In this document: positions 4,038-35,299 of the stretch, piece by piece
Layout of the letters: the number at the start of each line of letters is the position of its first letter
Numbering within the stretch: the stretch's first letter is position 1
Assembly (NCBI GenBank): GCA_019686135.1
Contig: JADGHL010000042.1
Location: forward strand, 1-36,508
Length of the DNA stretch: 36,508 bases
DNA from: Myxococcaceae bacterium
Lineage (GTDB): Bacteria > Myxococcota > Myxococcia > Myxococcales > Myxococcaceae
Direction: 5' to 3'
Notes under the pieces: generated by a model
Seen by the model: the letters and a program-made list of their open reading frames with translations, nothing else
Told to the model about the DNA's origin: nothing
Database searches by the model: none
Translations under genes and position numbers: made by a program

Positions 4038-4043
4038 GAGGCG

Positions 4044-5922: not shown

Positions 5923-5938
5923 CGGTCCTCCTCGGTCC

Positions 5939-7285
5939 TCAAGCTTCGCGCGTCACCCGGCGGCCGGAGGGCGGTGCGGGGAAGGTGCCGTCCGCGTAGA
6001 TCCGCTCGCCGGCCAGGAAGGTGGTGCGGACGCGGCCATATAGCCGGCGCCCGCTCCACGGCGTCAGCGGGTGGCGGTGCAGCACGTCCTTCGGCTGCGG
6101 GGTGAAGTCCGCGTCCGGATCGAACAGCACCAGGTCCGCGCGCAGGCCCGGAGCGATCCGCCCCCGGCTGCGCGAGACGCCGATGAACGCCGCCGTCCGT
6201 TCGCACATCACGCGCGCCAGCCACTCCAGCCCGAGCCCACGTGCCCGCATCCCGGTCCACACCGCGGGCAGCGAGAACTGCAATCCGGCGATGCCGCCCC
6301 ACGCCGCGCCGAAGTCGCCCGTCTCCAGCCCCTTGAGCGCCGGCGTGCACGGCGAGTGATCCGACACGACGAAGTCAATCGTCCCGTCCTTCACCGCGTC
6401 CCACAGGCGCTCCCGGTTCTCCGCCTCGCGGATGGGCGGCGCGCACTTGAAGTGCGTGGCGCCCGCGTCGATCTCCTCGGCGCTGAAGGTGAGGTAGTGC
6501 GGGCAGGTCTCCACGGTGAGCGGCAGCCCCTCTTCCCGCGCGCGCCGGATATCCGTCAGCGCGTCCGCCGACGAGAGGTGGACGATGTGCACGCGGCACC
6601 GGTGCGCGCGGCACAGGTCGATCATCATCCGGACGGCCGCGTTCTCCCACTCGCGCGGGCGAGCGTTCAGCCAGGTTGCGTACGCGCGCGGCTCGCCGCC
6701 GGTGGACGCGGGCGCGGCGTTCTCCAACTCCGCGTGCACCAGCAAGGGGACGCCTGCGCGCGCCAGCACCGGCATCGCTTCGTCGAGATCCGCGCGCGTC
6801 GACTGCGGGAACTCGTCCACGCCCGACGGGCAGAGGAACGCCTTGAACCCCAGCGCGCCGGCTTCGACCATCCGCTCGAGCTCCCCAGCGTTCTCCGGCA
6901 CCACCCCGCCCCAGAAGCCGTAGTCGATGGCGCAGCGCCCCTCCGCCGCCGCCACCTTGGTCTGAAGCGCGCTCAGTGTGGTGGTCGGCGGGATCGAGTT
7001 GAGCGGCATATCGACCACCGTGGCGATCCCCCCGGCTGCGGCGGCGCGGGTGGCCGTCTCGAAGCCCTCCCATTCGGTGCGCCCGGGTTCGTTGATGTGC
7101 GCGTGGCAGTCCACCACCGCCGGCATCACGACCTCGGCCGTCGCGTCGATGCGCTCGGCACCGGGCGGTCCGGCGACCTCGCCCCGCGCGACCTCGACGA
7201 TGCGGCCGTCGCGGACGATCACCGCGCCATCGACGAGACCTTCGGGCGTGACGATGCGGCGGCTGCGGATGACCCGATCGGACAT
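5939..7285 (-). CDS. allB: Allantoinase (cyclic amidohydrolase)
   Basis: Opens the hydantoin ring of allantoin to give allantoate. The protein is 448 residues, normal for AllB. It shows the amidohydrolase metal site: DCHAHINEPG (His61 and His63), Lys148 in GFKAFLC as the probable carboxylated bridging lysine, His184 in LLVHAE, HIVHLSSA at 233-240, and Asp309 in SDHSPC. The C-terminus has the usual beta-sandwich return (GRIAPGLRADLVLFDP). Dihydropyrimidinases and dihydroorotases share the fold. The HINEPGRTEWEGFETATRAA segment and the neighbouring urate genes favour allantoinase. The start lies 19 bases after puuD. Confidence 0.95.
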   Translation of the reverse strand: MSDRVIRSRRIVTPEGLVDGAVIVRDGRIVEVARGEVAGPPGAERIDATAEVVMPAVVDCHAHINEPGRTEWEGFETATRAAAAGGIATVVDMPLNSIPPTTTLSALQTKVAAAEGRCAIDYGFWGGVVPENAGELERMVEAGALGFKAFLCPSGVDEFPQSTRADLDEAMPVLARAGVPLLVHAELENAAPASTGGEPRAYATWLNARPREWENAAVRMMIDLCRAHRCRVHIVHLSSADALTDIRRAREEGLPLTVETCPHYLTFSAEEIDAGATHFKCAPPIREAENRERLWDAVKDGTIDFVVSDHSPCTPALKGLETGDFGAAWGGIAGLQFSLPAVWTGMRARGLGLEWLARVMCERTAAFIGVSRSRGRIAPGLRADLVLFDPDADFTPQPKDVLHRHPLTPWSGRRLYGRVRTTFLAGERIYADGTFPAPPSGRRVTREA

Positions 7286-7304
7286 GCGTGCCTCCGGAGC
7301 CCGG

Positions 7305-14359: not shown

Positions 14360-15910
14360 TCAGATGAGCCGCTGCATCTGCTCCGGCTCCAGGTTCCACA
14401 CCGGCACGCCGCAGTAGCGCGGCCCCTCGGGACAGAAGGGCGTGATGCCCGCCTCCTTGCGCAGCGTGCACGGCGGGCGGATGTGGCGGACCAGCTGCGG
14501 CTGCACCCGCGCCACCTGCCCCACCTCCTCCTTCGAGCAGCGCCAGATCTCCTCCTGGGCGGTGTAGCAGAGGCGGTGCACCCACTTGTGGTGGTGGTGC
14601 AGCAGATCGCCGCTCTCGTAGAAGCGGATCGGGAACGCGTTGGGCAGGAGGTACAGCGCGAACTCCTGCGGCACGTTGGCGTCGAGCAGCCGCTCGATCG
14701 TCTTCCACGTCCGGCCCACCACCTCGAAGAAGCGCTCATGCGCCTCGGGCACCGCGGCGATCAGATCGGGGACGATGACGTCCACCTCGCCGGGCACGAA
14801 GTGCGCGTGCAGCACCGGGCGGGACGCGGGCGTCATCCGGTGCCGCTGGTCCTGGCTGTCGGCGGTGTGGGAGAGCTTCTTCTGGAAAGTGAAGTGCGCG
14901 TGCCCGAGCGCGCGCGTGAGCTTGGACACGGTGGTGAGCGTGAGCGCCTCGCCGAGGTACGGGTTCTGCTTCGGCGAGAGCACGCGGTCGAGCGCGGCAT
15001 CGTCGGGGAGCTCCGCGCGCGTCAGCCCGAGCACCGCTCGCACCGCGGCCGCGACGGATGCGGGCCCGTTCACGCTGTAATCCACCAGGCGGGACCGCAC
15101 CGTGCCCAGCGCCTCGTCGAACTCGCGCAGGAAGCGCCGCGCGTCCGTGCCCGAGGCGCGCAGCCGGCCGTGCTCGGCCAGCGTGCGGAACTCCAGCGTC
15201 TGCTCCAGCGGCAGCGGGTCTTCGATCCGCTGGAAGAAGAGTGGATCCAGCTTCGACACCTCCGCCACCATCGCCTCGACCACCAGGCGGGCCTCGGTGG
15301 GCACGTCCAGCTGCTGGCAGAGCCGGTGATAACGGTGGAGCGTGAGCCCGGAGATGGTGTGGTACAGGTGCGCGAACGTGCCGATGGGGAGCACGTAGCG
15401 GGCGATCTCCTGCGCCTTCTTCTTGAGTCCCAGAGCCCAGCGATCCGGAGCGCGCTTTCGGGCCGGGAAGATGCGGAAGTACTCCTCGGCCACCTTCGGC
15501 TTGAGGAGCTCGATGAGCGCCCGGTAGCCGCCCATCATGTCCTCCACCGCCGCACGGTAGAGCGCCTCCTCCGCCTCGCCGAGCGCCGGGAGCACCACGT
15601 TGCCCGGCTTCACCTCGACGTAGCGCTGGCTCACCTGCTCCGAGTTGTAGAAGGGGTGCGCGTGGAGAAAGGACCAGATCGTCTGGCGCGTCACGTTCTC
15701 CAGAGTGAACTGGAAGGTGGCGTGCTGGAGCGTCGTGTGGTGGCCGGCCTCGTACGTCTCGCGGGCGATGCGATCGCGCATGGCGATCGCCCGCTCATCC
15801 TTCCGCACGTCGGCCGGCGTGATGATGCGGCTGTTGTAGCAGGTGCGCGCAGTGGCGACGGCGTTGTCGAACGGCTCGGTGAAGCCGTTGGTCAGCGTCA
15901 CCCTGGGCAA
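14360..15910 (-). CDS. thyX: Double-length FAD-dependent thymidylate synthase (tandem ThyX)
   Basis: Probable flavin-dependent thymidylate synthase making dTMP from dUMP with methylene-tetrahydrofolate. At ~516 residues it is about twice a normal ThyX and appears to be two ThyX domains. The N-half has FQFTLENVTRQ, then SEQVSQRYVEV (90-100) and QEIARYVLPIG (167-177), but the RHR triplet is replaced by AHP. The C-half has HAHFTFQKKL and QDQRHRMTPAS (353-363), then YLLPNAFPIRFYESG and YTAQEEIW, but lacks SxRY. The signature is therefore split between halves. I use the TTG at 15910. A GTG at 15901 is possible, and the frame stays open about 18 codons further upstream with no standard start. Confidence 0.88.
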   Translation of the reverse strand: MPRVTLTNGFTEPFDNAVATARTCYNSRIITPADVRKDERAIAMRDRIARETYEAGHHTTLQHATFQFTLENVTRQTIWSFLHAHPFYNSEQVSQRYVEVKPGNVVLPALGEAEEALYRAAVEDMMGGYRALIELLKPKVAEEYFRIFPARKRAPDRWALGLKKKAQEIARYVLPIGTFAHLYHTISGLTLHRYHRLCQQLDVPTEARLVVEAMVAEVSKLDPLFFQRIEDPLPLEQTLEFRTLAEHGRLRASGTDARRFLREFDEALGTVRSRLVDYSVNGPASVAAAVRAVLGLTRAELPDDAALDRVLSPKQNPYLGEALTLTTVSKLTRALGHAHFTFQKKLSHTADSQDQRHRMTPASRPVLHAHFVPGEVDVIVPDLIAAVPEAHERFFEVVGRTWKTIERLLDANVPQEFALYLLPNAFPIRFYESGDLLHHHHKWVHRLCYTAQEEIWRCSKEEVGQVARVQPQLVRHIRPPCTLRKEAGITPFCPEGPRYCGVPVWNLEPEQMQRLI

Positions 15911-16057: not shown

Positions 16058-16080
16058 ATTTTGACTCTGACTAGCAAAAT
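16058..16080. promoter_or_regulatory. AT-rich palindrome upstream of the FTR1 gene (candidate operator)
   Basis: ATTTTG at 16058-16063 and CAAAAT at 16075-16080 are perfect inverted arms around an 11-base spacer, in an otherwise GC-rich region and 35 bases before the FTR1 GTG. TTGACT at 16061-16066 overlaps the left arm and could be a -35 element, so a bound repressor would block transcription. An iron-responsive regulator is the obvious guess from the downstream gene. The sequence is not a textbook Fur or DtxR box. Confidence 0.35.
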
Positions 16081-16115
16081 TGAAATCACGACGCGGACGA
16101 TCTACAAGGTCCGCC

Positions 16116-18011
16116 GTGCGCCGCCACGTCCCCATGCTGATGATGTCCGTCCTCGCCCTCTGCGCGCAGGTAGGCGCAGCCCAGACGCCGCCTTCGGCGG
16201 AGCCGGAGGGCGAAGCCCAGTCCAGCTGGCACCACGTGGTGGGCATCCTCCAGTACCTGCAGGCGGACTACCCCGAAGCGCTGAAGTCGGGTTCGCCGAC
16301 GGAGATGGAGGAGCAGCGCGCCTTCGTCCAGGAGGCCATCACCACCGCGCAGGAGATCGGCCCGGCGGCGCGCGCCTTCGTCCCGCGGATGAAGGACATC
16401 CAGAAGCGGATCGACGCCGGGCAGGATCCGGAGGGCGTGAGCCGGGACTGCGCCGCGTTGATCGAGGATCTCGTGCTGGCGGGTGGGCTCGCGCGCAGCC
16501 CGCACCAGGTGCCAGAGCTGGCGCGCGGCAGGGAGTTGTTCGCGCAGGCCTGTGCCGCGTGTCACGGAACGACGGGCGATGGCCAGGCTCCGGCGGCCGC
16601 GACGATGGATCCGAAGCCCGCCAACTTCCTCGACCCCAGGGTGATGGCCTCGCTGACGCCCTACAAGGCGTTCAACACCATCAGCTTCGGCGTCACCGGA
16701 ACGGCGATGCCGTCGTTCTCCACCGCGCTGACGGAGAAGGACCGCTGGGCGCTGGCGTTCTACGTCGTCTCGCTGCGCCACCGGGGCGCGACCTGCCAGG
16801 GCGAGCCCGCGCCCGTGTCGCTGGAGAAGCTGGCCACCGAATCGGACGAAGCGCTCGCGGCCGAGTACGGCGTCGACGCCGTGCCCTGCCTGCGCACCCG
16901 GCCGCCGAAGCCCGACGATGAAGCGCTCCTCCTGAGCGCGCGCACGCACGTCCTCGAGGCGATGGCGCACGCGAAGGCGGGCGATCCGTCCGCGGCGAAG
17001 CAGGCGCTTCTGACCGCGTATCTTGCGGGCGTGGAGCCGGTGGAGCCGCTCCTCCGGGCGCGCTCGCCCGGGCTGGTCGCGGAGATCGAACAGGCCGTGC
17101 TGCGGATGCGGGTGGCGATCGATCAGCGGAGCCCGCATGTGAAGGACGAAGGCCGCGAGCTCATCAGCCTCATCGACCGCGCGCGCCGCTCGGGCGGGAA
17201 GACGACCGTGCTGGGTGTGGCGTTGATGGCCTTCGTCATCCTTTTGCGCGAGGGCTTCGAGGCGCTGGTGGTGATCGCCGCGCTCCTCGCGGTGCTCAAG
17301 CGGATGAAGGCGGAGCAGCAGGCGCGCGTGGTCCACGCCGGGTGGGCGACCGCGCTGGTCGCGGGCGGGGTGGCGTTCATCTTCGGGCAGCAGCTGCTGA
17401 CAGGCGCGAACCGCGAATGGGTGGAGGGCGTGGTCGCGCTGATCGCCGTAGGGATGCTGCTGTACGCGGCGCTGTGGCTGAACGCGCGCGCGAACATGAG
17501 CGCCTTCATGAAGGAGCTGCGCGGCCGGATGGAGGGCGCGCTCGGTGGAGGCAGCCTGATCGGTCTGTTCTTCATCTCCTTCAGCGCGGTGGGGCGCGAG
17601 ACCTTTGAGACCGCGTTGTTTCTGCAGGGGCTTTCCATCGACTCCAGCGCCGGCACCGTCTACGGCGCGCTGGCGGGCCTTTTGTGCCTGACCGGCCTGG
17701 TGATCCTGGTGTCGCGGGTGGGCTACCGGCTGCCGATGAAGCTCTTGTTCAACATCTCCACCGGTGTGCTGTTCGCGACGGCGGTGATGCTCCTCGGCAA
17801 GGGGCTGCACGCGCTGCAGGAGGTGGGCGCCGTCCCCATCGCGCCGATCCCGATGATCCGCGTGGACGTCCTCGGCGTGTTCCCGGATGCGTACTCGCTC
17901 GTGCCGCAGCTTCTGCTCGCGCTGTCGCCGCTGGCGTGGTCCGGCGTGAAGAAGCTCCGCGGCCGGTCTGCGACCCGCGCTTCCGGCGCCGTGAGCGGAA
18001 CACCGCACTGA
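16116..18011 (+). CDS. FTR1-family iron permease fused to a periplasmic cytochrome c domain
   Basis: Predicted high-affinity iron (Fe2+/Fe3+) importer. The GTG at 16116 is preceded by AAGG and gives a clean signal peptide (RRH, hydrophobic core, then AQVGAAQ). The periplasmic part includes a c-type heme site CAACH at 146-150 with a probable Met ligand in TGTAMPSF (Met198). The C-terminal ~260 residues are the FTR1 membrane domain with about seven TM helices and both iron-binding motifs: REGFE (378-382) and RETFE (494-498). The heme domain may oxidise or reduce iron at the channel mouth, replacing the multicopper oxidase of yeast. Total length is 631 residues. It is divergent from thyX. Confidence 0.92.
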   Translation: MRRHVPMLMMSVLALCAQVGAAQTPPSAEPEGEAQSSWHHVVGILQYLQADYPEALKSGSPTEMEEQRAFVQEAITTAQEIGPAARAFVPRMKDIQKRIDAGQDPEGVSRDCAALIEDLVLAGGLARSPHQVPELARGRELFAQACAACHGTTGDGQAPAAATMDPKPANFLDPRVMASLTPYKAFNTISFGVTGTAMPSFSTALTEKDRWALAFYVVSLRHRGATCQGEPAPVSLEKLATESDEALAAEYGVDAVPCLRTRPPKPDDEALLLSARTHVLEAMAHAKAGDPSAAKQALLTAYLAGVEPVEPLLRARSPGLVAEIEQAVLRMRVAIDQRSPHVKDEGRELISLIDRARRSGGKTTVLGVALMAFVILLREGFEALVVIAALLAVLKRMKAEQQARVVHAGWATALVAGGVAFIFGQQLLTGANREWVEGVVALIAVGMLLYAALWLNARANMSAFMKELRGRMEGALGGGSLIGLFFISFSAVGRETFETALFLQGLSIDSSAGTVYGALAGLLCLTGLVILVSRVGYRLPMKLLFNISTGVLFATAVMLLGKGLHALQEVGAVPIAPIPMIRVDVLGVFPDAYSLVPQLLLALSPLAWSGVKKLRGRSATRASGAVSGTPH

Positions 18012-18987: not shown

Positions 18988-20511
18988 TCAGGCGTGGAAG
19001 TAGCGTTCGTCGCGGCGAACGACTCGTCCCTCACGGACGAGTTTGATGAGGATGGCTTGCGCGCTGCGCTCGGCGATCGGGTGCATCGCTTCCATCGTGT
19101 CCGCGTAGGCTTTCTTCACCACCTCGTGCAGCGTGGCACCGAACCGGGGGATCGCTTCGAACACCAGCCGTTCGCGGTGCTGGCGGTGGAGCAGATACTC
19201 CTCCAACTTGCCGGGGCCGTCGGGAATCACCGGTCCGTGGGCCGGGTAGAGCGTGGAGACCGGCAGGTTCTTCAGCCGCTCCAGCTGCGCGAGGTAGTCC
19301 GTCATATCGCCCTCGGGCGGATCGATGACGATCGTCCCCACGCCCGCGACCATGTCGCCGACGATGGCCGCACGCGTCGCCTCATCGATGAGGCACAAAT
19401 GCCCGCGCGCGTGCCCCGGCGTGTGCAGCACGCGCAGCTTCATCGCCGGCAGGCCCTGAAGGTCGATGACTTCGTCGTCCACCAGCAGGCGATCCACCGC
19501 GCCGGCGGGGAGCCGCTCGGCGGTGCGCTCGTGGGCCCAGATCGGGATCTTCAGGCGCTCCTTCACCGCCAGCGCCCCACCCACGTGATCCGCGTGATGG
19601 TGGGTGAGGAAGATCGCCCGCGGCCGCTTGCCCTCGGCAACCATCCCGGCGATCAGCGCGAGCAGCCGCGCGTACTGCCGCACCTCCTTCGATCCGGGAT
19701 CGACGATCAAAAGCTCGCCGTTGCCCACCACGTACGCGTTGGTGTGCGTCGCCGGCGGGAGCGTGTCCGTCTCCAGCGGGAACAGGTGGATGCCCCGCTG
19801 GAACTCGATGCGCGACGGGATGTGGCCGGGGGCGTTCTGCGGGGTGCTCAGCCGCTGCGCCGCGTCCTCGGGCGTGGTGAAGGTGGCCATCACCCGCATC
19901 GCGTGGAGGTTGGGCGGGTGCAACAGCGCCCGGCCCTCGTTCCACAGCTCCAGCGCCTCGGCCGGTTTGATCCACCGGCCCTCGCTCAGCTCGCCCGGCC
20001 ACACCTCCGCGTCCTGCGCGGCGGGCGCCTCCACCAGGAAGAACCGCGCGTCGAAGCGGACCGGCATGAACGGCGGGGTGATCCACCGGCCGGCGTCGAC
20101 GAAGTCGCGCTTGCGAAGCCGCAGCCCGTGTTCCTTCAGCAACGTGGCGAACGTCGCCTTCGCCTCGAGCAGCGCGCGGCGCATGTCCGCCCGCTGGCGC
20201 GCGCTCACGCGGTCCGCGCCGTCCGCCACCAGCACGCCGGTCTCCTCCAGAAGCTCGCGCGCCGCGGCCACCACCAGCGCCGCGTCTAGGCCTTCGGCGC
20301 CCTCCACCGGGACCTCGGAGTCTGCCGGATCGACCCGCCCTCCGGGGAACGCATAGAACCCGCCCGCGAAGCGGAGGTCCTTGCCGCGCTTGAGCCAGAA
20401 CACCGCCGCGCCGCCCGCACCCCGGCGCCGGTAGAGCACCACCGCCGCGGCGTCGCGGACGCGGGCCGGCTGCACCGGGGGCTTCTGCATCCCGGGGAGC
20501 GCTTCACTCAT
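18988..20511 (-). CDS. Nudix hydrolase / metallo-beta-lactamase fusion protein
   Basis: A 507-residue two-domain hydrolase. Residues ~18-200 are a Nudix fold with FAGGFYAFPGGRVDPAD (48-64) and the box end RELLEETGV (85-93). The upstream Glu of the box is Ala here, so activity is uncertain. Residues ~225-440 are a metallo-beta-lactamase domain with THHHADH at 303-309, LHTPGHARGH, VGDMVAG and YPAHGP. A winged-helix-like tail follows (LVREGRVVRRDERYF), as in LACTB2/RNase-type MBL proteins. Known MBLs of this group are RNases or thioesterases, and the substrate here is unknown. The ATG at 20511 overlaps the HD gene stop (ATGA), indicating co-translation. Confidence 0.9.
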   Translation of the reverse strand: MSEALPGMQKPPVQPARVRDAAAVVLYRRRGAGGAAVFWLKRGKDLRFAGGFYAFPGGRVDPADSEVPVEGAEGLDAALVVAAARELLEETGVLVADGADRVSARQRADMRRALLEAKATFATLLKEHGLRLRKRDFVDAGRWITPPFMPVRFDARFFLVEAPAAQDAEVWPGELSEGRWIKPAEALELWNEGRALLHPPNLHAMRVMATFTTPEDAAQRLSTPQNAPGHIPSRIEFQRGIHLFPLETDTLPPATHTNAYVVGNGELLIVDPGSKEVRQYARLLALIAGMVAEGKRPRAIFLTHHHADHVGGALAVKERLKIPIWAHERTAERLPAGAVDRLLVDDEVIDLQGLPAMKLRVLHTPGHARGHLCLIDEATRAAIVGDMVAGVGTIVIDPPEGDMTDYLAQLERLKNLPVSTLYPAHGPVIPDGPGKLEEYLLHRQHRERLVFEAIPRFGATLHEVVKKAYADTMEAMHPIAERSAQAILIKLVREGRVVRRDERYFHA

Positions 20512-21812
20512 GACCGGGCCTCCACCGGCCGCGAGGGCACCTTCAGCGCCGCGCGTGCCGCGTCCGCCTGGTCGGGCCGAGCGAAGATGCGGGTGATGCG
20601 CACCTCGTCCCGCATCCGGTCGTAGAGCGGCGTGTACTTCGCCACCTCGGTGAGCCGTCCGCTCGACACGTCGAGGATGTAGAGCGACGGGCCGTGTCCG
20701 TCGTCGAAGTACCGCGACAGCACGCCGCGCGACTCCACCGTGAAGTGCTCGATCCCGCGCTCGGTCAGAATGCGATCCATCTCCTTGAGGTCGTACCCCA
20801 CGTCGCGCTCGGTGAACTCGACCACGCGCTTGAATGGTGACCGGCTGACGATCCGCGCGGCCCACCGGTTCTTCGACGCGCGCAGGGCGGTGATCAGCGC
20901 CACGTCGTCGCACACCAGGAAGGCCTCCGGGTCCGAGGGGATCTCGAACTCGCCCGGTGCCTCCTCGTAGAAGCGGCGAAGCATGTGATCGAAGTTCACC
21001 GTGGTGTGGTGGTAATAGACCGACAAGAACATGTGGTAGCGGCTGAGGAGGAAGTCCTCGAAGGCGAACGCCGCCGCCCGGGAGAGCGCCAGGTGGGCGC
21101 GCCCCGCAATCACCGCCGGGTTGAGGTTCTGGACGATCCACTCCAGGTCGTACCGGCCGTACGTCACCCCGGTGAAGAATGAATCGCGGAGCAAATAGTC
21201 CATCCGATCCGCGTCGAGCTCGCCGCTCACCGTGGCGCGCAGAAGCGGGAACCAGTCGATGCCCTCGTGCACGAAGGGCGAGCCGCCGGGCACGGGAGCG
21301 CCGGAGATCAACGAAGCGATCGCCTCGGGGGTGATCCCCAGGTCCCCGTACTCGCGCTCGAGGATGCTCCGCAGCGAGCTGTCGAGCACGATCTTCACCG
21401 TGAAGTCCTCGTGGGACGCCTGATCGTCTGGCCCGGGCGCCTCGGGGCCCTCTGAGATCCACGTGGGGAGCTTCAGCGCACGGCGCGGCGGGGCGATCTT
21501 CTCCGAGGCGTGCGACAGCGGCATGTGGCCGAGGTCGTGGCAGAGCACCGCGGCGCGCACCGTGGCGCGGAAGCGGGCCTGAACGGGCTCGGGGAGATCG
21601 GACCGCGCCGCCACCGCGTCGAACAGACGCGAGGCCACGTGCATCGCGCCCATCGAGTGGGCGTGGCGCGTGTGGGTGGCGCCCGGGAATGCGAGGTCGC
21701 CGAAGCCCAGTTGTCGTACGTTGCGCAGCCGCTGGAAGAAGCGGCTGTCGATGATGGCCTTCTCCTGGTCGCTGACGGGAATGGTGCCGTGGATCGGATC
21801 CCGGATGCGCAT
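20508..21812 (-). CDS. HD-domain phosphohydrolase (SAMHD1/dGTPase-like)
   Basis: A 434-residue cytosolic metal-dependent phosphohydrolase. It begins with RIRDPIHGTI, typical of SAMHD1-like proteins. It carries the HD metal site: His50 in HTRHAHSMG, His92-Asp93 in CHDLGHMPLSH, and a downstream Asp in ELDADRMDYLLRDS. Relatives hydrolyse dNTPs to nucleoside and triphosphate, but several are uncharacterised, so the substrate is not assigned. An ATG at 21833 would add seven residues. I chose 21812 because it places IRDPIHG at the usual distance. Its stop overlaps the Nudix/MBL gene. A 117-base region separates it from the divergent ATP-grasp gene. Confidence 0.9.
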   Translation of the reverse strand: MRIRDPIHGTIPVSDQEKAIIDSRFFQRLRNVRQLGFGDLAFPGATHTRHAHSMGAMHVASRLFDAVAARSDLPEPVQARFRATVRAAVLCHDLGHMPLSHASEKIAPPRRALKLPTWISEGPEAPGPDDQASHEDFTVKIVLDSSLRSILEREYGDLGITPEAIASLISGAPVPGGSPFVHEGIDWFPLLRATVSGELDADRMDYLLRDSFFTGVTYGRYDLEWIVQNLNPAVIAGRAHLALSRAAAFAFEDFLLSRYHMFLSVYYHHTTVNFDHMLRRFYEEAPGEFEIPSDPEAFLVCDDVALITALRASKNRWAARIVSRSPFKRVVEFTERDVGYDLKEMDRILTERGIEHFTVESRGVLSRYFDDGHGPSLYILDVSSGRLTEVAKYTPLYDRMRDEVRITRIFARPDQADAARAALKVPSRPVEARS

Positions 21813-21929
21813 CGCGCAACCGGCATAGCGCATTCCGGATGCCCCGTCCCTCAACGAAGCAGCGGACAACGGGCCACTGGGCAGGGCTTGGGACAGTGCG
21901 AAGAAAGGTGATAGGGAGACGGCAACTGA

Positions 21930-23051
21930 ATGCACCTGTGCATCCTCTACAACCGTGACCAGGATTTGCTGGATGACGACCCCGGCCGTGAAGCACGAGA
22001 GGATGTGACGCGCGTCGCCACCGCGCTGCACGACGCGCTCGACGGGCATGGCTACAAGGTGGACCTCCTCGGCGTCGGGCGCGATCCGTTCGCGTTCGTC
22101 GAAACGCTCCGGGTGCGGTTGCCGGATCTGGTGATCAACCTCTGCGAGTCGGTCGCCGCGGACAGCCGCGGGGAGATGGCGGTGCCGTGCATGCTGGATC
22201 TGCTCGGCGTCCCATACACCGGCTCTTCGGCGCTCTCTCTGGGGCTGGCGCTTCACAAGAACAAGGCGAAGGAGGTCTTGCGCGGGCGCGGCGTCCCCAC
22301 GCCGGAGTTCGCGGTCATCTCCCGGCTGGAGGAGGTCACCGGCCTGGAGCTGCCCTTCCCGCTCATCATCAAGCCCTCGCGCGAGGACGCGTCGGTGGGC
22401 ATCGACTTCGAGTCGGTGGTGCACGATCGCGCCGGGCTGCAGGCCGCGGTGGCGCGGGTGCTCGAGACCTTCAAACAGCCGGCGGTGGTGGAGCGCTTCA
22501 TCGAAGGGCGGGAGATCTACGTCCCGCTGCTCGGCAACCGGCCGCGCACGGCGCTCCCGCTCACGGAGATCGCCTTCGGCCCTGCCTTCGAAGGGCGGCC
22601 GCGGATCGTCTCCTACCGTGCCAAGTGGGACGCCGAATCGCCCGAGTGCATCGACTCGACGCCGGTGCGCGCGACCCTGCCCCCCGCGCTGCACGCACGG
22701 GTGGTGGAGGTCGGCAGCCGCGCCTTCGAAGCGCTCGAATGCCAGGACTACGGCCGGGTCGACCTTCGAGTGAGCCCGGACGGTCAGCCGTACGTCATCG
22801 ACATCAACCCCAACTGTGACCTACACCCCGAAGCAGGGTTCGCGCGGTCCGCAGCAGCCAGCGGCCTGGAGTATCCAGACCTGGCGCGCAGGCTGGTAGA
22901 GATCGCGCTCGAGAGGACTCATGGAAATACGACCCATCTCGTCCAAAGACCGGGAAGCGCTCGCCGTCCTCCTCGGAAGGATCGAAACGTTTTCGCCGCA
23001 GGAGGTCGCCTGCGCCCTCGAGCTCATCGACCTGGCCATCAAGCCGACTGA
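21930..23051 (+). CDS. ATP-grasp ligase, D-Ala-D-Ala ligase-like, with out-of-frame overlap at its 3' end
   Basis: Predicted ATP-dependent carboxylate-amine ligase of the D-alanine-D-alanine ligase group. The N-domain has INLCESVAADSRGEMAVP and LLGVPYTGSSALS. The ATP-binding core has PLIIKPSREDASVGI and VVERFIEGREIYVPLLG. The metal site lies in DYGRVDLRV and YVIDINPNCDLHPEAG. Core homology ends near ALERT (about residue 330). The frame then continues 131 bases over the next gene, adding ~43 Arg/Pro-rich residues that look like a shadow. Its true substrate is unlikely to be D-Ala: the gene is not in a cell-wall cluster and sits with GNAT and transglutaminase genes. Alternatives include other peptide or amino-acid ligases. 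Confidence 0.85.
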   Translation: MHLCILYNRDQDLLDDDPGREAREDVTRVATALHDALDGHGYKVDLLGVGRDPFAFVETLRVRLPDLVINLCESVAADSRGEMAVPCMLDLLGVPYTGSSALSLGLALHKNKAKEVLRGRGVPTPEFAVISRLEEVTGLELPFPLIIKPSREDASVGIDFESVVHDRAGLQAAVARVLETFKQPAVVERFIEGREIYVPLLGNRPRTALPLTEIAFGPAFEGRPRIVSYRAKWDAESPECIDSTPVRATLPPALHARVVEVGSRAFEALECQDYGRVDLRVSPDGQPYVIDINPNCDLHPEAGFARSAAASGLEYPDLARRLVEIALERTHGNTTHLVQRPGSARRPPRKDRNVFAAGGRLRPRAHRPGHQAD

Positions 23052-23397
23052 CCCGTCCCACCCGGACTACCAGGTCCTGCTGGCGGAGAAGGACGACAAG
23101 GTCGTCGGCTACATCTGCTACGGCCCGACACCGATGACCGAGGGCACGTGGGATCTGTACTGGATCGCCTCCGACCCTTCGGTGCGGGGCCAGGGCGTGG
23201 GCGCCGCGCTCGTCTCGGCGATGGAGGGCGAGCTCCGCCGCAAGGGGGCGCGGCTCATCCGCGTGGAGACCTCGGCGATGGAGGCCTATGGCCCGACCCG
23301 CGGCTTCTACGCCGCGATGAAGTACGGCGAGGAGGCGCGCTTCCGCGACTTCTACAAGCCGGGCGAGGACCTCATCATCCTCTCCAAGCGGCTGTAG
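22921..23397 (+). CDS. GNAT-family N-acetyltransferase
   Basis: A 158-residue acetyl-CoA-dependent acyltransferase. The fold is clear: the N-terminal EIRPISSKDREAL strand/helix, VVGYICYG, LYWIASDP, and the acetyl-CoA pyrophosphate loop RGQGVGAALV at 89-98, then RGFYAAMKYGEEARFRDFY. The acceptor is unknown. The ATG lies inside the ATP-grasp reading frame (overlap 131 bases), so translation may be coupled. The stop is 39 bases before the transglutaminase start. In related bacteria ATP-grasp and GNAT modules are often neighbours or fused, which suggests joint action on one peptide or amino-acid product. Confidence 0.92.
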   Translation: MEIRPISSKDREALAVLLGRIETFSPQEVACALELIDLAIKPTDPSHPDYQVLLAEKDDKVVGYICYGPTPMTEGTWDLYWIASDPSVRGQGVGAALVSAMEGELRRKGARLIRVETSAMEAYGPTRGFYAAMKYGEEARFRDFYKPGEDLIILSKRL

Positions 23398-23436
23398 GCG
23401 GTGGAACAAATCCCGGGGCCCTCCGTCTTGAGGTTC

Positions 23437-24891
23437 ATGCGCCGCCGCACCGTCGCCTCCGCGTTCGTCGCAGTCCTCGTCTCCGTGGCACCGCTGGCGG
23501 GCGCCGCGGCGCCGCTGTCCGACGCGCTCAAGGCGAAGCGGCCGAAGGGCGGCGAGTGGTTCGGGCTGTACCTGTTGGGCAAGAAGGTCGGCCACGCGTA
23601 CGTCGATCTCGCGCTCGTCCCCGGGCAGCCGGACAAGGCGAAGGCCACCAACGAGTTCGTCTTCGAGACGAAGGTCGACACCCGCGTGTCCAGGCGGGTC
23701 GTCCGCGACGTGCGGATCTACGAGTCGAAGCCGAACGGGCGGCTGCTCTCCTTCGTGATCGAACAGCACGGCGACGGCGGCGACCAGATCATCGAGGGCA
23801 CCAACACGCCATCGGGGCTGCACATCATCCGCAAGCGGCCGGGCGCGCCCAACGACGTCCGCACGCTGCCTCCGAGCTCCGAGACGATCGAAGCCGCGGA
23901 CCAGGCGCGGGTGGCGCTGTGGCGCGGCGGGAAGGTGGAGAGCCGGTATACCGACGGGACGGACCTGGAGGCCTACCGGGTCACCAGCGAGGTGATGCCG
24001 GACGCCGAACGCGTGCTGGGTGGCGTGAAGACGAAGGTGAAGCGCGTCAGCACCCTCTCTGAGAAGGAGAATGTCCCCACCATCAACGTCTTCACCCGGC
24101 AGGGCGAGACGGTGGAGATCCAGATGGGCGAAACGCTGCGCGCGGTCGCCGAACCGAAGGAGGTCGCAGAGCGGCTGGACAAGGTGGAGGTGTTCGCGCT
24201 CACCCGCGTGGTGCTGCCGGAGAAGCTCGACGAGTCGCGGCGGATGATCCCCGGCCAGCTCAAGCTCACTGTGACCGGGCTGCCCGAGCGCTTCTGCAAG
24301 AACTCCGCGCGGCAGAAGTTCCGGCAGCTCGGCAAGGGCCGGACGGAGATCACCATCACCGCGCGCTTCCCGGACAAGGAGTCCCGCCTTTCCCGGCCGG
24401 TGAAGGATCCGACCGGCGGCCAGTACCTCGAACCTACCCTGACGGTGGAGTCCGACGACGCGCAGATCGCCGCGCTGGCGAAGAAGATCGTGGGCGGGGA
24501 GAAGGACGCCTACGCCGCGGCGAAGGCGATCACCTTCTGGGTCTACCAGCACATGCAGCGGGACTACGGGGCGTCGGCGGATCGCGCCACCGACGTGCTC
24601 CGGCGGATGAAGGGCGACTGCACCGAGCACGCGCTTCTGGCCACCGCGCTCATGCGTGCCGCCGGCATCCCTGCCCGGCGCGTGGACGGCGTGGTGTACG
24701 TGATGAACGAAGACGGCGTCCCCGCGCTCTACTGGCACGAGTGGGTGCAGGCATACGTGGGCGAGTGGACGGATCTCGATCCGACCTTCAACCAGGCGGT
24801 GGCGGACGCCACGCATCTGGCGCTGGGCGAAGAAGGCAGCGCGGAGATCACTCCGCTCATCGGGTCGCTCAAGGTCGAAAAGGTCGAGTAG
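23437..24891 (+). CDS. Exported transglutaminase-like (papain-fold) protein
   Basis: A 484-residue secreted or periplasmic protein with a Sec signal (MRRRTVASAFVAVLVSVAPLAGAAA). A long beta-rich N-domain of about 300 residues precedes the transglutaminase core. The catalytic triad is readable: Cys395 in GDCTEHALL, His434 in YWHEWVQAYV and Asp448 in WTDLDPTFNQ. Such bacterial proteins are usually proteases, amidases or crosslinking enzymes; true transglutaminase activity is not implied. A GTG at 23401 would add 12 residues before the signal, so the ATG at 23437 is favoured. It is the third gene of an apparent ATP-grasp/GNAT/transglutaminase cassette. Confidence 0.9.
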   Translation: MRRRTVASAFVAVLVSVAPLAGAAAPLSDALKAKRPKGGEWFGLYLLGKKVGHAYVDLALVPGQPDKAKATNEFVFETKVDTRVSRRVVRDVRIYESKPNGRLLSFVIEQHGDGGDQIIEGTNTPSGLHIIRKRPGAPNDVRTLPPSSETIEAADQARVALWRGGKVESRYTDGTDLEAYRVTSEVMPDAERVLGGVKTKVKRVSTLSEKENVPTINVFTRQGETVEIQMGETLRAVAEPKEVAERLDKVEVFALTRVVLPEKLDESRRMIPGQLKLTVTGLPERFCKNSARQKFRQLGKGRTEITITARFPDKESRLSRPVKDPTGGQYLEPTLTVESDDAQIAALAKKIVGGEKDAYAAAKAITFWVYQHMQRDYGASADRATDVLRRMKGDCTEHALLATALMRAAGIPARRVDGVVYVMNEDGVPALYWHEWVQAYVGEWTDLDPTFNQAVADATHLALGEEGSAEITPLIGSLKVEKVE

Positions 24892-29543: not shown

Positions 29544-31472
29544 GTGCCGCACGACGAATCTTGGTTCGACCAGCTTGCGCAGCTCCTCGAGCTGGAGCGC
29601 CGGGAGGAGCGCGCCCGCTCCGCGGAGGAGCGCCGGACGCTGCCTTTGACCGAGCTTCAGGCGCGCGGACAGGTCCTCCTCGATCTCGAGGCGGTCGAAG
29701 AGGACGTCGGACTGGGCGGCCGCTTCCTCATCACCTTCGAACGGCCCGACCGCCGCGCGCTCCCGGCGCGCTTCTCCCCCGGCGATCTGGTGGAGGTCCG
29801 CCCACGCAAGGCGGAAATCGAGACGCCCGCCCGGGCCGTCGTCTCGCGCGCCGGCGCGACGAGGCTGCAGCTCGCGTTCGATCGCTCCCCGCCGGAGTAC
29901 GTGCGCGAGGGGCGCACCCGCATCGACCGCATCCCCAACGACGTCACCTTCGACCGCGCGCGCGAGGGGCTGAGGCGGCTTCAGGCTCTGGACAAGGGGC
30001 GCGAGCGGCGGCGGCGCGACGTGCTGCTCGGCCGCGAACCCGCGCGCTTCTCCTCTCCGCTCCCGGCGCTGACCCCGACCCGGCCGCTCAACCCGGAGCA
30101 GCTCGAAGCGGCCACGCGCGCGCTCGCGGCGGAGGACTTCTTCCTCGTCCACGGCCCGCCGGGCACTGGCAAGAGCACCGTGCTCGCGGAGGTCGCCGCT
30201 CAGGCGGTGGCCGGCGGCGCGCGGCTTCTGTGCACCGCCGCCAGCAACGCCGCCGTCGACCATCTGCTCGACCTCTGCGTCCGCCAGGGCCTGCGGGCGA
30301 TCCGCATCGGCCACCCCGCCCGCGTCTCCGACCGATTGCAGGCGCACGTGCTGGACATCGTCGTCGAGTCGCACCCCGACCGCGTCCTCTCCCGCGAGCT
30401 CTTCGACGAGGCGTTCGACCTTCTGGGCTACGCGCGCCGCCAGCGCACCCGAGGCCGAAGCCGCGAACGCTTCGCCAACGCCCGCGCGTCGAAGGCCGAG
30501 GCGAACGCGCTCTTCGACGAGGCCCGTGCGCTGGAGCGCCGGGCGGTGCGCGCGGTGCTGGAGGGCGCCCAGGTGATCTGCGCCACGCTGTCGATGCTGG
30601 ATGGCGGGCTGCTCTCGGGCGAGACGTTCGACCTCGCGCTGGTGGACGAGGCGACCCAGGCGATCGAACCTTTGGCGCTCCTCGCCTTCCTCCGTGCGCC
30701 GAAGGTGATCCTCGCCGGCGACCACCGGCAGCTCCCTCCGACGGTGCTCTCGGAGGAGGCGGCGGCCCGCGGGCTGGCGCGCAGCCTCTTCGAGCGCCTG
30801 CTCGACGAGCACGGCGACGGGGTGAAGCAGATGCTCCGCGAGCAGTACCGGATGAACGAGCGGATCATGTCCTTCCCCTCGCGCGAGCTTTACGGCGGCG
30901 AGCTGCGCGCGCATGCCTCGGTGGCCACGCGCGCACTCGGCGAGCTGCTCACGCGCGAGGTGGACGCGCCGCCGGTGTTGTTCATCGACACCGCGGGGAA
31001 GGGCTTCGAGGAGCAGGCGTTGGAGGGCGATCAGAGCCTGTTCAACGAGGGCGAGGCCGCGTTGGTCATCGCCCGCGCACAGGAGCTGACCTCATCAGGC
31101 CTTCCGCCCGAAGAGCTGGCGATCATCACCCCCTACCGCGCGCAGGCCGCGCTCATCCGCGAACGGCTCGGCGACGCGCTGGCCGCGGTGGAGGTGGACA
31201 CGGTGGACGCGTTCCAGGGCCGGGAGAAGGAGGCGGTGCTGGTCTCGCTGGTACGCACCAACACGGACGGCCAGATCGGGTTCCTGACGGACCTGCGCCG
31301 CATCAACGTGGCGATCACCCGCGCGAAGCGGCACCTCTTCGTCGTCGGCGACTCGGCCACTCTCGGCGGGCACGCGTTCTACGCGCGCTTCATCGAAGAG
31401 GCGCAGCAGCACGGCGGCTACCGCTCCGCGTGGGACTGGCCGGAGCCGGCGCCGGTCACTGCCGGATCGTGA
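29544..31472 (+). CDS. SF1B helicase of the UPF1/IGHMBP2-like group
   Basis: ATP-dependent DNA or RNA helicase of 642 residues starting at GTG 29544. The N-terminal ~180 residues include a small beta-barrel-like region (GRFLITFERP, FSPGDLVEVRPR). Motif I is GPPGTGKS (204-211), with motif II LVDEATQA, motif III LAGDHRQLPPTVLS, and motif IV/V/VI elements LREQYRMNERIM, VDTVDAFQGREKEAVLVSLVRTN and INVAITRAKRHLFVVGD. These match Superfamily 1B enzymes of the UPF1 type. The biological role in bacteria is unclear. The 3' end overlaps the convergent repeat-lipoprotein gene by 17 bases. Confidence 0.94.
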   Translation: MPHDESWFDQLAQLLELERREERARSAEERRTLPLTELQARGQVLLDLEAVEEDVGLGGRFLITFERPDRRALPARFSPGDLVEVRPRKAEIETPARAVVSRAGATRLQLAFDRSPPEYVREGRTRIDRIPNDVTFDRAREGLRRLQALDKGRERRRRDVLLGREPARFSSPLPALTPTRPLNPEQLEAATRALAAEDFFLVHGPPGTGKSTVLAEVAAQAVAGGARLLCTAASNAAVDHLLDLCVRQGLRAIRIGHPARVSDRLQAHVLDIVVESHPDRVLSRELFDEAFDLLGYARRQRTRGRSRERFANARASKAEANALFDEARALERRAVRAVLEGAQVICATLSMLDGGLLSGETFDLALVDEATQAIEPLALLAFLRAPKVILAGDHRQLPPTVLSEEAAARGLARSLFERLLDEHGDGVKQMLREQYRMNERIMSFPSRELYGGELRAHASVATRALGELLTREVDAPPVLFIDTAGKGFEEQALEGDQSLFNEGEAALVIARAQELTSSGLPPEELAIITPYRAQAALIRERLGDALAAVEVDTVDAFQGREKEAVLVSLVRTNTDGQIGFLTDLRRINVAITRAKRHLFVVGDSATLGGHAFYARFIEEAQQHGGYRSAWDWPEPAPVTAGS

Positions 31473-34400
31473 TGACGAGCCGGTAGTCGAACTGCGCCGC
31501 GCCGGGCGTCACGCCCTTCGGCGACGACACCTTCAGGTAGTACGTCCCGGGGTCGAGCTTGTGCGCCGCCTCCTGCGCCGGCCGCGCGCCGGTGCCGTCC
31601 AGGAGCGAGCACGACCCGCGGCCGACGTCGTCCACGTCGTCGAGCAGCACCCCGGCCGCATCGTAGAGCTCCAGCAGGCTGTCGATGCCGTTCGACTCGC
31701 ACGTCTCGGCGCCGCTGCCTTCGATGACCTCCGCGCGGATGCTCTTGCCGGCCGGGACGGTGACCGCGTACCAGTCGTCGTCCGTGCCGGCGGGATGTCC
31801 GCCCGTGACGAAGCCGTCGTCGCCGGCGATCGCGTTCGCCGAAAGCAGCGCGTCATTCGGCTCCACCTCGCTGCCCGCGCCCGGCACCCACCGCACATCC
31901 AGCGTGTACGGCACCGCGCCGCCAGCGGGAGCGCCCTTCTCCACGCGCACGTAGTAGCTGCCGGGCGCAAGGTTCACCGTCAGCGCGGAGCACGCCAGCA
32001 CGCCGTCATCGTCGTCGGTGTACAGCGGCGTGAACGCCGCGTCGTAGAGCGTCAGCCGGGTGGCGAGCGTCAGCGGACAATCACCGAGCACCGTCCCGAA
32101 GGTCTCGAAGCGCACGACGCTGGCCGTCGCGACCGAGAGCTTGAAGGTGTCCTCGTCCGTGCCGCTGCCGAGGGTGCCCTGCACGTGGGTCGACGCGGAG
32201 ATGGTCAGCGCGCCCGCGTTGGCGTCCGCCTCGGCCTGCGTGCCATTCGGTTCGATCTCCACTGGCCCTTCGATGGTGCAGCCCGGCGAGCAACCGTCGG
32301 CGGACGAGGTGTTGCCGTCGTCGCAGGACTCGGTCCCGTCCACGTAGCCATCGCCGCACACCACGACACGGTCGCAGGTGGTGGTGCAGTTCGGCTGCCC
32401 ATCGCACGCCTCGCTGCCTTCGATGGTGCCGTTGCCGCAGGTGGCCACCTTCCGGATCCACAGCGAGTAGCCGCTCACCGGGGCGCCCTTCCCGTCGACG
32501 CGCACGAAGTACGTCCCCGGCGCCATGTGCGTCACGCCCGAAGAGAGCGGCGGCTCCAGCTTCGAGCACGCGCCGATACCTCCGTCGTCGTCGGTGCCGA
32601 GCACGGTGGTCCCATCCGGCCCCAGGAGCTGGATCCGCGTGTCGACCGAACAGCCGGGCGGTCCCGCCGCGTCGAAGGTTTCGATCACCACATCCGAGGT
32701 CGCCGTCAGAGTGAACTGGAAGACGTCGACGTCCCCGCCGGAGGAGATGGCGCCGCTTGCCAGGCCGCCCGAGCCCACGGGCGACCCGGTGGCGGGCGTG
32801 CCATTCGGCTCGACCTCCGGCAATAGCTCCCACGCGCAGAGGCTCGAGCACCCATCGCCGCTGACGACGTTTCCGTCGTCGCAGCTCTCGCCGGCCTCGA
32901 CCTCCCCGTTGCCGCAGACCGGCGGCTGCACGGTGACGGTCAGCGCGTAGTCGTTCACCGGTCCGCCCTGCGGCGAGCGCGCCACCTCCACGAAGTACGC
33001 GCCCGCCGCCAGCGGCTCGGAGACGAACCGCGAGCACCAGTTGCCCGGGCCCAGATCGTCCGCGGTGCCCGCCGCGTCGAAGACGGCCCCGCCCATCGCG
33101 TCGCGGACCGCGATCTGCGTGTCGATCTGCTTCGCCGCGCACTGCGCGCCGAGCGGCCCGTCCACGGTCTCGGCGATGAGCCGCGCGTTCGCCGGCACCG
33201 ACACGCCGAAGACGTCCTTGTCGGTGGCCGTGGGCGAGAGGAACGCCTTCACGTTGCCCGCCACGCTCACCGACGAGAAGGCGTTCGCCGTCGCGTCCGT
33301 GTCGTTGGGCTCGAGCTCGCAGCCGCTCTCGATGGTGCACGCCGGCGAGCAGCAGTCCCCGGCCTGGCCGTTGCCGTCGTCGCACTGCTCGCCGGGCGTC
33401 CTCACTCCGTCGCCGCAGACGCTGGAGCAGACCGAGGGCTCGCCGGTGCAGCTGTACCCGGGCTCCACCTCGCAGAGCGCGCTGCAGCCATCTCCGCCGC
33501 CGGGGTGACTGTCATCGCAGCCTTCGGAACCCTTCACCAGCCCGTCGCCGCAGATGGGCGCGCACGACGAGGGCGTGGTCTGGGTGCAGGTGAAGCCTGG
33601 CTCCACCGTGCAGGCCGCGCTGCACCCGTCCCCACTGAGGGTGTTCCCGTCGTCGCACGCCTCCTCGGAGACGATCACATTCCCATCCCCGCACACCGCG
33701 GCGCAGGCGCTGGGCGATCCGCTGCAGGCATAGCCGTTCTCGACGAGGCAGGTGCTCGAGCACCCATCGCCGGACGTCCCGTTGCCGTCGTCGCACAGCT
33801 CGTTGCCAACCACCACGCCGTCGCCGCAGCCCGCAACGCACATCGATGGCGAGCCGGTGCAGCTGTACCCGGGTTCGATGAGGCAGCTGGCGCTACAGCC
33901 GTCGCCGGAGGTGGCGTTGGCGTCGTCGCACGCCTCCGTGCCCGCGCGGATGCCGTCCCCGCAGGTGGTGATGCAGGTGCTCGGCTGGCCCGTGCAGGTG
34001 AACCCGTCCTCGACGACGCAGATCGGATTGCACCCATCGCCCGCGAACGTGTTGCCGTCGTCGCACTGCTCGGCGCCGGCGATCACCCCATCGCCACAGC
34101 CGGTCACGCACTTCGAGGGCTCGCCCGCGCAGGTGTACCCATCCTCCACGGTGCAGGACGACGAGCAGCCGTCGAAGTTGGCGGCGTTGCCGTCGTCACA
34201 GGTCTCATCGCCTACGATGAGCCCGTCCGAGCAGAACGACTCGCACACCGTGGGGATGCCGTTGCACAGCCACCCGGGCTCGGGCTGGCAGGTGGCATCG
34301 CAGCCGTCGCCGGAGCGGAGGTTGCCGTCGTCGCACCCCTCCTGGCCCTTGAGCTTCCCGTCCCCGCAGACGGGTGCGCAGACGCTGGGTGTGCCGGAGC

Positions 34401-34944
34401 ACGCGTAGCCCGGCTCCACCTCGCAGTCCGAGTTGCAGCCGTCGTTGAAGTCGACATCGCCGTCGTCGCACTGTTCCGCGCCGGCGATCACCCCGTCGCC
34501 ACAGGTCGTCCTGCAGTGGCTGGGCGTGCCCGAACAGGTGAAACCGGGCTCGGCGGTACACGCAGCGGAGCAGCCGTCGCCGGGATCGGCGTTGCCATCG
34601 TCACAGTCTTCGCCCGCCTTCGCGTCCACGACGCCGTTTCCGCAGGCCGCCACGCAGACGCCCTCGGCACAGACCTGGTCCGTGGCGCACGCATGTCCGC
34701 AGTCGCCGCAGTTCGCGTCATCCGTGCGCGCGTCGATGCACGCGCCGTCGCACTCCACGAGGCCCTGTGCGCAGCCGGCGCCACCGTCGGTTTCGCCTCC
34801 GTCGGTGGAGCCCGCGTCGACGGATGGCCCGGCGTCCTTCCGCCCGTTCGGGTTCGGGTGTGGCGAGGGCGATCCACCTCCACACGCTGCAAGCACGGCG
34901 AAGGCGAGGACGCACGAGAGGCGGGAACACAGGCGGACGGGCAT
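31456..34944 (-). CDS. Large cysteine-rich repeat lipoprotein with four PPC-like domains
   Basis: A 1162-residue surface-type lipoprotein starting at ATG 34944, with GAGGAG about nine bases upstream. Lipobox LAAC (Cys21) is followed by a Gly/Ser/Asp-rich linker and a Cys-dense segment. From residue 101 there are ten tandem ~45-residue repeats of the pattern CGDGxxxxxExCDDGNxxxGDGCxxxC, the myxobacterial disulfide repeat (DUF4215-like). Three more sit between four beta-sandwich units that start with an (E)xEPN motif (ELEPNDT, EVEPNGT, EIEPNGT, EVEPNDA) and end in GTYFVRV- or GTYYLKV-like strands, as in PPC (pre-peptidase C-terminal) domains. A stalk or adhesin-like exterior protein is plausible. 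No catalytic domain is visible. Confidence 0.92.
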   Translation of the reverse strand: MPVRLCSRLSCVLAFAVLAACGGGSPSPHPNPNGRKDAGPSVDAGSTDGGETDGGAGCAQGLVECDGACIDARTDDANCGDCGHACATDQVCAEGVCVAACGNGVVDAKAGEDCDDGNADPGDGCSAACTAEPGFTCSGTPSHCRTTCGDGVIAGAEQCDDGDVDFNDGCNSDCEVEPGYACSGTPSVCAPVCGDGKLKGQEGCDDGNLRSGDGCDATCQPEPGWLCNGIPTVCESFCSDGLIVGDETCDDGNAANFDGCSSSCTVEDGYTCAGEPSKCVTGCGDGVIAGAEQCDDGNTFAGDGCNPICVVEDGFTCTGQPSTCITTCGDGIRAGTEACDDANATSGDGCSASCLIEPGYSCTGSPSMCVAGCGDGVVVGNELCDDGNGTSGDGCSSTCLVENGYACSGSPSACAAVCGDGNVIVSEEACDDGNTLSGDGCSAACTVEPGFTCTQTTPSSCAPICGDGLVKGSEGCDDSHPGGGDGCSALCEVEPGYSCTGEPSVCSSVCGDGVRTPGEQCDDGNGQAGDCCSPACTIESGCELEPNDTDATANAFSSVSVAGNVKAFLSPTATDKDVFGVSVPANARLIAETVDGPLGAQCAAKQIDTQIAVRDAMGGAVFDAAGTADDLGPGNWCSRFVSEPLAAGAYFVEVARSPQGGPVNDYALTVTVQPPVCGNGEVEAGESCDDGNVVSGDGCSSLCAWELLPEVEPNGTPATGSPVGSGGLASGAISSGGDVDVFQFTLTATSDVVIETFDAAGPPGCSVDTRIQLLGPDGTTVLGTDDDGGIGACSKLEPPLSSGVTHMAPGTYFVRVDGKGAPVSGYSLWIRKVATCGNGTIEGSEACDGQPNCTTTCDRVVVCGDGYVDGTESCDDGNTSSADGCSPGCTIEGPVEIEPNGTQAEADANAGALTISASTHVQGTLGSGTDEDTFKLSVATASVVRFETFGTVLGDCPLTLATRLTLYDAAFTPLYTDDDDGVLACSALTVNLAPGSYYVRVEKGAPAGGAVPYTLDVRWVPGAGSEVEPNDALLSANAIAGDDGFVTGGHPAGTDDDWYAVTVPAGKSIRAEVIEGSGAETCESNGIDSLLELYDAAGVLLDDVDDVGRGSCSLLDGTGARPAQEAAHKLDPGTYYLKVSSPKGVTPGAAQFDYRLVITIRQ
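33317..34644 (-). repeat. Tandem array of ten ~135-base coding repeats (Cys-rich disulfide repeat)
   Basis: Within the lipoprotein gene, a ~135-base unit encoding about 45 residues recurs ten times. The most conserved core on the plus strand is close to GTTGCCGTCGTCGCA, which encodes the CDDGN segment. Copies differ at many bases but keep all six cysteines and the Asp/Gly pattern. One copy has CDDSHPGGG and another GDCC in place of the usual GDGC. Recombination between units could change copy number. Confidence 0.8.
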
Positions 34945-34999
34945 GGGGGAGCTCCTCGGCCCGGCATTATGGGTGATGCCTCTGGTAGAAGCTGCCCGG

Positions 35000-35299
35000 A
35001 TGGAGTGCACCCGCTGCGGCGCCTGCTGCGTCGCGCCAGACATCGCCGCGCTGAACAAGCCTGTGGGGCTGCGCTGTCCGCACCTGACCGACGACAACCT
35101 CTGCGCCATCTACGAGCGCCGCCCGCAGATCTGCCGCGACTACGCCCCCGACGAGGTGTGCCGGATGATCGAAGCACCCACGCTCGAGGAGCGCGTCAGA
35201 AAGTACCTCGCGCTGTTCGGGCTCGAGGCGGAGGCGCAGACGGTCCGCGAGCACGGCTGCCGGTCGATGCGGGCGGCGCGGCGCCTCACCGCGAAGTAG
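35000..35299 (+). CDS. YkgJ-family cysteine-cluster protein
   Basis: A 99-residue protein with the metal-binding Cys pattern of the YkgJ/CxxCxxCC family: CTRCGACC at residues 3-10, CPHL, CAIYERRPQICRDY, and later VCRM and GCRSM. The family probably binds a zinc or Fe-S site and has no settled function. A Met at 34976 would add eight residues (PLVEAAR), but family members usually begin right before CxxCGxCC, so I prefer 35000. It is divergent from the repeat lipoprotein, with only 55 bases between the starts. Confidence 0.9.
   Translation: MECTRCGACCVAPDIAALNKPVGLRCPHLTDDNLCAIYERRPQICRDYAPDEVCRMIEAPTLEERVRKYLALFGLEAEAQTVREHGCRSMRAARRLTAK

Follow-up and report, generated by a model that had tools for sequence, protein, structure and literature searches.

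A conserved ATP-grasp/GNAT gene pair in Myxococcaceae, possibly the retained half of a four-gene pathway to a small N-acyl peptide

Do three consecutive genes for a ligase-like protein, an acetyltransferase and an exported papain-fold protein make up one biochemical system? The question is raised by a locus within a 36,508-nt stretch of DNA from a Myxococcaceae bacterium (GCA_019686135.1, contig JADGHL010000042.1, positions 1 to 36,508), here called the window. A preliminary description had proposed that the three genes cooperate, with a small peptide or amine being made and acylated and the exported enzyme acting as a third component. The three plus-strand reading frames were found where it had placed them and have GC3 values of coding type (0.82 for the ATP-grasp, 0.92 for the GNAT and 0.93 for the transglutaminase-like ORF). 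The family identities that it had assigned were borne out by Pfam matches to Dala_Dala_lig_C (6e-27), Acetyltransf_1 (1.5e-12) and Transglut_core (1.7e-20, 73.8 bits against a cut-off of 23), respectively. The features of the locus are as follows.

20508..21840 (start approximate), minus strand: HD-domain gene, divergent from the ATP-grasp/GNAT pair (Pfam HD and HD_assoc_2; Myxococcaceae synteny)
21930..23051, plus strand: ATP-grasp ligase of clade b, with a Ddl-like fold but not Ddl (Pfam, tree, AlphaFold, Foldseek)
22921..23397, plus strand: N-acetyltransferase of the GNAT family (158 aa), same family as PDB 2r7h (Pfam, profile match, neighbourhood)
22921..23051, plus strand: 131 nt shared, in different frames, by the ATP-grasp ORF and the GNAT gene (ORF coordinates)
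23437..24891 (ORF from 23401), plus strand: transglutaminase-like secreted protein, probable start ATG 23437 (Transglut_core, AlphaFold, Foldseek)

The preliminary description had suggested a gene-neighbourhood search across Myxococcota, and 195 genomes of the phylum were searched with each of the three proteins, the coordinates being compared by hand. The outcome was divided: the ATP-grasp and GNAT genes co-occurred, but the linkage of the transglutaminase-like gene did not extend beyond the window's family. The ATP-grasp and GNAT proteins are 57–79% identical and their genes adjacent in about 90 Myxococcaceae genomes, and because of this identity and adjacency the pairing is more than chance; the two form a deeply conserved pair. 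The HD-domain gene is also kept beside the pair in Myxococcaceae loci (L056–L060, L101 and L167) and was not assigned to the system. The transglutaminase-like gene lies directly 3′ of the GNAT gene in 82 of the 91 GNAT-bearing genomes of the family. In the other nine (G067–G072, G105, G108 and G147, some on short contigs) it is elsewhere or missing. Outside the family it was linked in none of the five pair-bearing genomes (G027, G155, G156, where the GNAT is partial, G157 and G161). Dozens of genomes have it but not the pair, among them G106, G142–G145 and nearly all of family f3, and in G105, G067 and G108 it adjoins a protein-kinase-like gene instead.

On this linkage the transglutaminase-like protein was rejected as a member of the pathway. 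A single system of three genes, with the exported enzyme working on what the ligase and GNAT produce or on envelope protein, is thus very improbable in our estimate, even though order and strand are the same in the 82 linked family genomes and the gap in the window is only about 40 nt. Besides the nine unlinked family members, the unlinked genomes outside the family and the many solitary copies, the gene was never found beside the four-gene cluster described below in the other phyla examined, and export to the periplasm is a poor fit to a cytosolic product. It is probably a linked but separate envelope gene.

The protein itself conforms to its superfamily. The intact Cys-His-Asp triad that had been read from its sequence (Cys407, His446 and Asp460 of the 496-aa ORF) falls in invariant columns of a 26-sequence alignment (C393/H432/D446), within the Transglut_core domain. 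Its true start is probably ATG 23437 rather than GTG 23401, as judged from the sequence, and starting there it would carry the Sec-type signal MRRRTVASAFVAVLVSVAPLAGAAA. An AlphaFold model (pLDDT 91.6) was matched by Foldseek to 3isr (4.2e-11) and to the DUF1849 structure 6ntr (7.6e-7); the modeled N-terminal barrel-like domain resembles DUF1849 and the C-terminal core resembles 3isr. The product is a predicted secreted protein with a transglutaminase-like core and putative protease or transglutaminase activity.

The preliminary description had named grouping of the ATP-grasp protein with housekeeping Ddl as a refutation of its proposal, and the protein does not group there. The protein has the ATP-grasp fold: its AlphaFold model (pLDDT 84) has Ddl 3r5x as its top Foldseek match (5.8e-25, 23% identity), and the catalytic Lys/Glu/Asn (K144, E180 and N272 equivalents) are kept in 41 of 41 b-type sequences, with the ATP-binding residues retained as well. 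The conserved body spans approximately residues 1–330, ending at about 22919, and the tail past about residue 330 is predicted to be disordered (residues 333–373 are modeled at a pLDDT of only 30–42). Despite the shared fold and catalytic core, the differences from Ddl are clear. A tree of 83 sequences places the protein in a clade of 74 members that excludes all Ddl (support 100). Two ligase subclades, a and b, are resolved in this tree, and subclade b (support 99), consisting mostly of ATP-grasps adjoining this GNAT, includes the window protein. Its scores lie far under the Ddl cut-offs (133 bits against 243 for PRK01372, 112 against 246 for TIGR01205). The second-substrate site is also changed: Ser281 of E. 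coli Ddl, the residue binding the second D-Ala, is Ser in five of five Ddl sequences, whereas it is Ala in 39 and Ser in two of 41 b-type sequences. The genome's own Ddl lies on a separate contig (C38; L065:6221-7162, minus strand) in a mur-fts cluster, with neighbors that we take from their sequence starts to be murC, ftsA and ftsZ. Tree, second-substrate residue and model scores together ruled out a housekeeping Ddl identity.

The GNAT contains the acetyl-CoA loop VRGQGVG and belongs to the family of the structural-genomics protein 2r7h (8.6e-29 as a single sequence, 5.3e-53 as a profile). The label of that entry, ‘Putative D-alanine N-acetyltransferase’, is the depositor's guess; we know of no biochemistry for it. 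The 131 nt that the ATP-grasp ORF shares, in another frame, with the GNAT gene is one of several overlap lengths in the family, which range from 83 to 137 nt and fall mostly into discrete classes of 89, 110, 131 and 137 nt. In one relative (G157) the overlap is just 4 nt. Within the overlap, 4-fold sites of the GNAT gene gave no clear sign of added constraint (0.337 vs 0.398, p=0.13), and a functional meaning was set aside. A search for an RNA fold 5′ of the ATP-grasp gene also found nothing (z 1.76).

With whom, then, does the pair work? The preliminary description had sought partners within the three-gene set, and the likely real ones, a second ATP-grasp and a lysine 2,3-aminomutase, lie outside the window. 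A scan of 84,980 genomes, one per species, with only the GNAT alignment as query yielded at least 569 relatives. Of these loci the best 80 were retained, and all ORFs of 48 loci were clustered. An ATP-grasp gene was beside the GNAT in nearly all of the best 80 loci, though absent from the query, and the clustered loci revealed a further recurrent family, located either directly 3′ of the GNAT gene or ahead of the ligase genes: KamA-type radical SAM enzymes whose closest match is lysine 2,3-aminomutase. Among the 31 loci not labelled Myxococcota or deltaproteobacteria, a lysine 2,3-aminomutase is adjacent in 29 (exceptions L111 and L131) and a second ATP-grasp, of clade a, is present in 29 (exceptions L111 and L136, the latter cut by a contig end); the opposite strand carries the aminomutase and ligase a in L109. 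The 31 loci come from Acidobacteriota, Aminicenantota, Bacteroidota, Ignavibacteriota, Calditrichota, Fidelibacterota, Kiritimatiellota, Lentisphaerota, Chloroflexota, Chlamydiota, Spirochaetota and KSB1, with three unplaced. The full set of lysine 2,3-aminomutase, ATP-grasp a, ATP-grasp b and GNAT is also found in four deep Myxococcota (L047, L052, L053 and L054). From these gene orders, the four-gene cluster is likely to be the ancestral context of the pair.

A survey of amidoligases by Iyer and colleagues in 2009 reportedly covered ATP-grasp/GNAT neighborhoods; the likeness is general, with amidoligases accompanied by acetyltransferases and amino-acid-modifying enzymes. The combination of an aminomutase with ATP-grasps in such a cluster was not described in the literature searched, which leaves that survey aside.

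The operon aminomutases score 432–484 bits against TIGR03820, the NCBIfam lysine 2,3-aminomutase model, which is below its equivalog cut-off of 525 and within the KamA subfamily as defined by TIGR00238; their profile matches 2a5h at 589 bits. In 2a5h numbering, C125/C129/C132 (CxxxCxxC), R134, D293, D330 and K337 are kept in 22 of 22 operon copies, and the same set is kept in the main aminomutase copy of the window genome. D293 and D330 bind the lysine side chain in the solved enzyme and, because they are conserved, beta-lysine is the expected product. As a separate observation, one locus (L148:7408-8766, plus strand) encodes directly beside the aminomutase a diverged KamA-like paralogue of 452 aa in which Arg replaces the PLP lysine, and this paralogue is kept in a relative (L179).

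The KamA family also includes EpmB, which makes beta-lysine for EF-P, and the operon enzymes do reach 246 bits against the EpmB model TIGR03821. Modification of a protein or tRNA in the manner of EpmA/EpmB beta-lysylation nevertheless strikes us as quite unlikely. The score is well under the cut-off of 369 and below that for lysine 2,3-aminomutase, neither EF-P nor EpmA was found as a recurrent neighbor at the cluster loci, and Ddl-like ligases act, as far as known, on free amino acids. A role in D-amino acid metabolism, with the pair serving as a second D-Ala-D-Ala-type ligase and a D-alanine N-acetyltransferase in wall-precursor variation or detoxification, would suit the Dala_Dala_lig_C fold of ligase b and the depositor's label on the nearest solved GNAT relative. 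It is unlikely given the separation from Ddl at support 100, the replacement of Ser281 in 39 of 41 b-type sequences, the scores far under the Ddl cut-offs and an operon partner that resembles an L-lysine aminomutase.

The reading we favor, with a probability of about one half, is that the ATP-grasp and GNAT represent two surviving genes of an ancient four-gene pathway to a small N-acyl peptide, probably one containing beta-lysine. This keeps the best-fitting part of the original proposal, a small modified peptide or amine made by an ATP-grasp and an acetyltransferase, and drops its exported third member. The aminomutase would convert L-lysine to beta-lysine. Each ATP-grasp would then activate a carboxylate as an acyl phosphate and join it to an amine to give a di- or tripeptide, and the GNAT would acetylate a remaining amine to yield a small N-acyl peptide in the cytoplasm. 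By analogy, this product would most likely be a compatible solute or a storage or stress metabolite; no fifth gene was found to recur around the cluster across phyla, so the osmolyte role is an argument from parallels. We know of no substrate tested for any enzyme of the family.

Two characterized systems offer such parallels. En route to the osmolyte NAGGN, Ngg acetylates one glutamine and ligates a second (PMC8070244). The Ngg/AsnO system (PA3459–PA3461; PMC8070244) thus likewise combines GNAT and peptide-ligase activities to give a short cytoplasmic N-acetylated peptide, but there Ngg performs both steps on glutamine and is accompanied by an asparagine-synthase-like protein and a peptidase, whereas here the activities reside in separate genes, with Ddl-like ligases and an aminomutase. 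In the AblA/AblB system, an aminomutase and an acetyltransferase make N-epsilon-acetyl-beta-lysine (PMC3543383, PMC4685198); it shares the placement of a lysine 2,3-aminomutase beside a GNAT but operates without ATP-grasp ligases. The pair is neither of these systems. An AblB identity for the window GNAT was rejected (TIGR03827 E=0.025, 14 bits against a cut-off of 205), as was an Ngg identity, TIGR03103 being absent among its 16 NCBIfam matches; no asparagine-synthase-like partner of the NAGGN type was found among the recurrent neighbors of the GNAT loci.

In Myxococcaceae the proposed pathway would be a scattered one. Ligase b and the GNAT, two of the four cluster genes, stand alone in the window, and relatives of the other two are dispersed over the same genome. 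A fused a′-a ligase lies beside an S58 (DmpA-type) peptidase on contig C51, and an aminomutase with all lysine-binding residues is encoded on contig C81; the aminomutase of the family is of a standalone type, not adjacent to the pair. Of ten Myxococcota loci examined, eight have the fused ligase together with the S58 peptidase. This two-gene unit of a double ATP-grasp and a peptidase (L061:6125-10696, minus strand; L169–L171 and L174–L178) is an observation in its own right. Enzymes of the S58 type, for example DmpA and BapA, go by the name of beta-aminopeptidases and either form or split beta-alanyl peptides (PMC9570944).

Presence and absence of the scattered genes across the 195 Myxococcota genomes did not give supportive covariation with the pair, because in much of the phylum almost every genome has the aminomutase and the fused ligase. 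The aminomutase is found in 183 of the 195 genomes compared with 100 for the GNAT, and the fused ligase is present in many genomes without the pair. Conversely, five pair-bearing genomes lack an aminomutase match, of which three are at least 95% complete (G069, G103 and G104). Given near-universal partners on the one hand and these good genomes on the other, we infer, rather than observe, that the scattered genes still cooperate with the pair, and beta-lysine use in the Myxococcaceae pathway is an extrapolation of the same kind from sequence.

The same data leave some room for a Myxococcaceae pair that has lost its tie to beta-lysine and acts as an independent N-acyl dipeptide synthase on ordinary alpha-amino acids, for which Ngg, working on glutamine, is a precedent. 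We regard this as doubtful, although it deserves more weight than the other alternatives. The pair is always together yet apart from the aminomutase and ligase a across Myxococcaceae, and neither of the scattered genes covaries with it; but ligase b and the GNAT are related to the operon copies, and the window genome still has an aminomutase with all lysine-binding residues. A broader form of the retained-pathway reading is tentative. It holds that the four-gene cluster, found in some ten bacterial phyla or more, makes a widespread and undescribed class of N-acylated beta-lysine peptides. The window pair would then make the form belonging to myxobacteria, and the fused ligase and S58 peptidase would serve in its synthesis and recycling. 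Should the pathway reading be right, hundreds of genomes with genes resembling ‘D-alanine-D-alanine ligase’, ‘GNAT’ and ‘lysine aminomutase’ would share one pathway to a small peptide, and these ATP-grasp proteins, probably misannotated as enzymes of the cell wall, would be corrected in their annotation.

Several other features of the window were recorded. A uric acid degradation cluster (2679-8999, minus strand) encodes a urate oxidase with a C-terminal cytochrome c, an allantoinase-like amidohydrolase, an allantoicase and a DUF6986 protein. A ThyX-type protein (14360-15910, minus strand) has two Thy1 matches in a 516-aa chain, and an FTR1-type iron permease (16080-18011, plus strand) is fused to a cytochrome c domain. 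Finally, a large protein encoded at 31456-35109 on the minus strand carries 12 DUF4215 matches together with pre-peptidase C-terminal domains.
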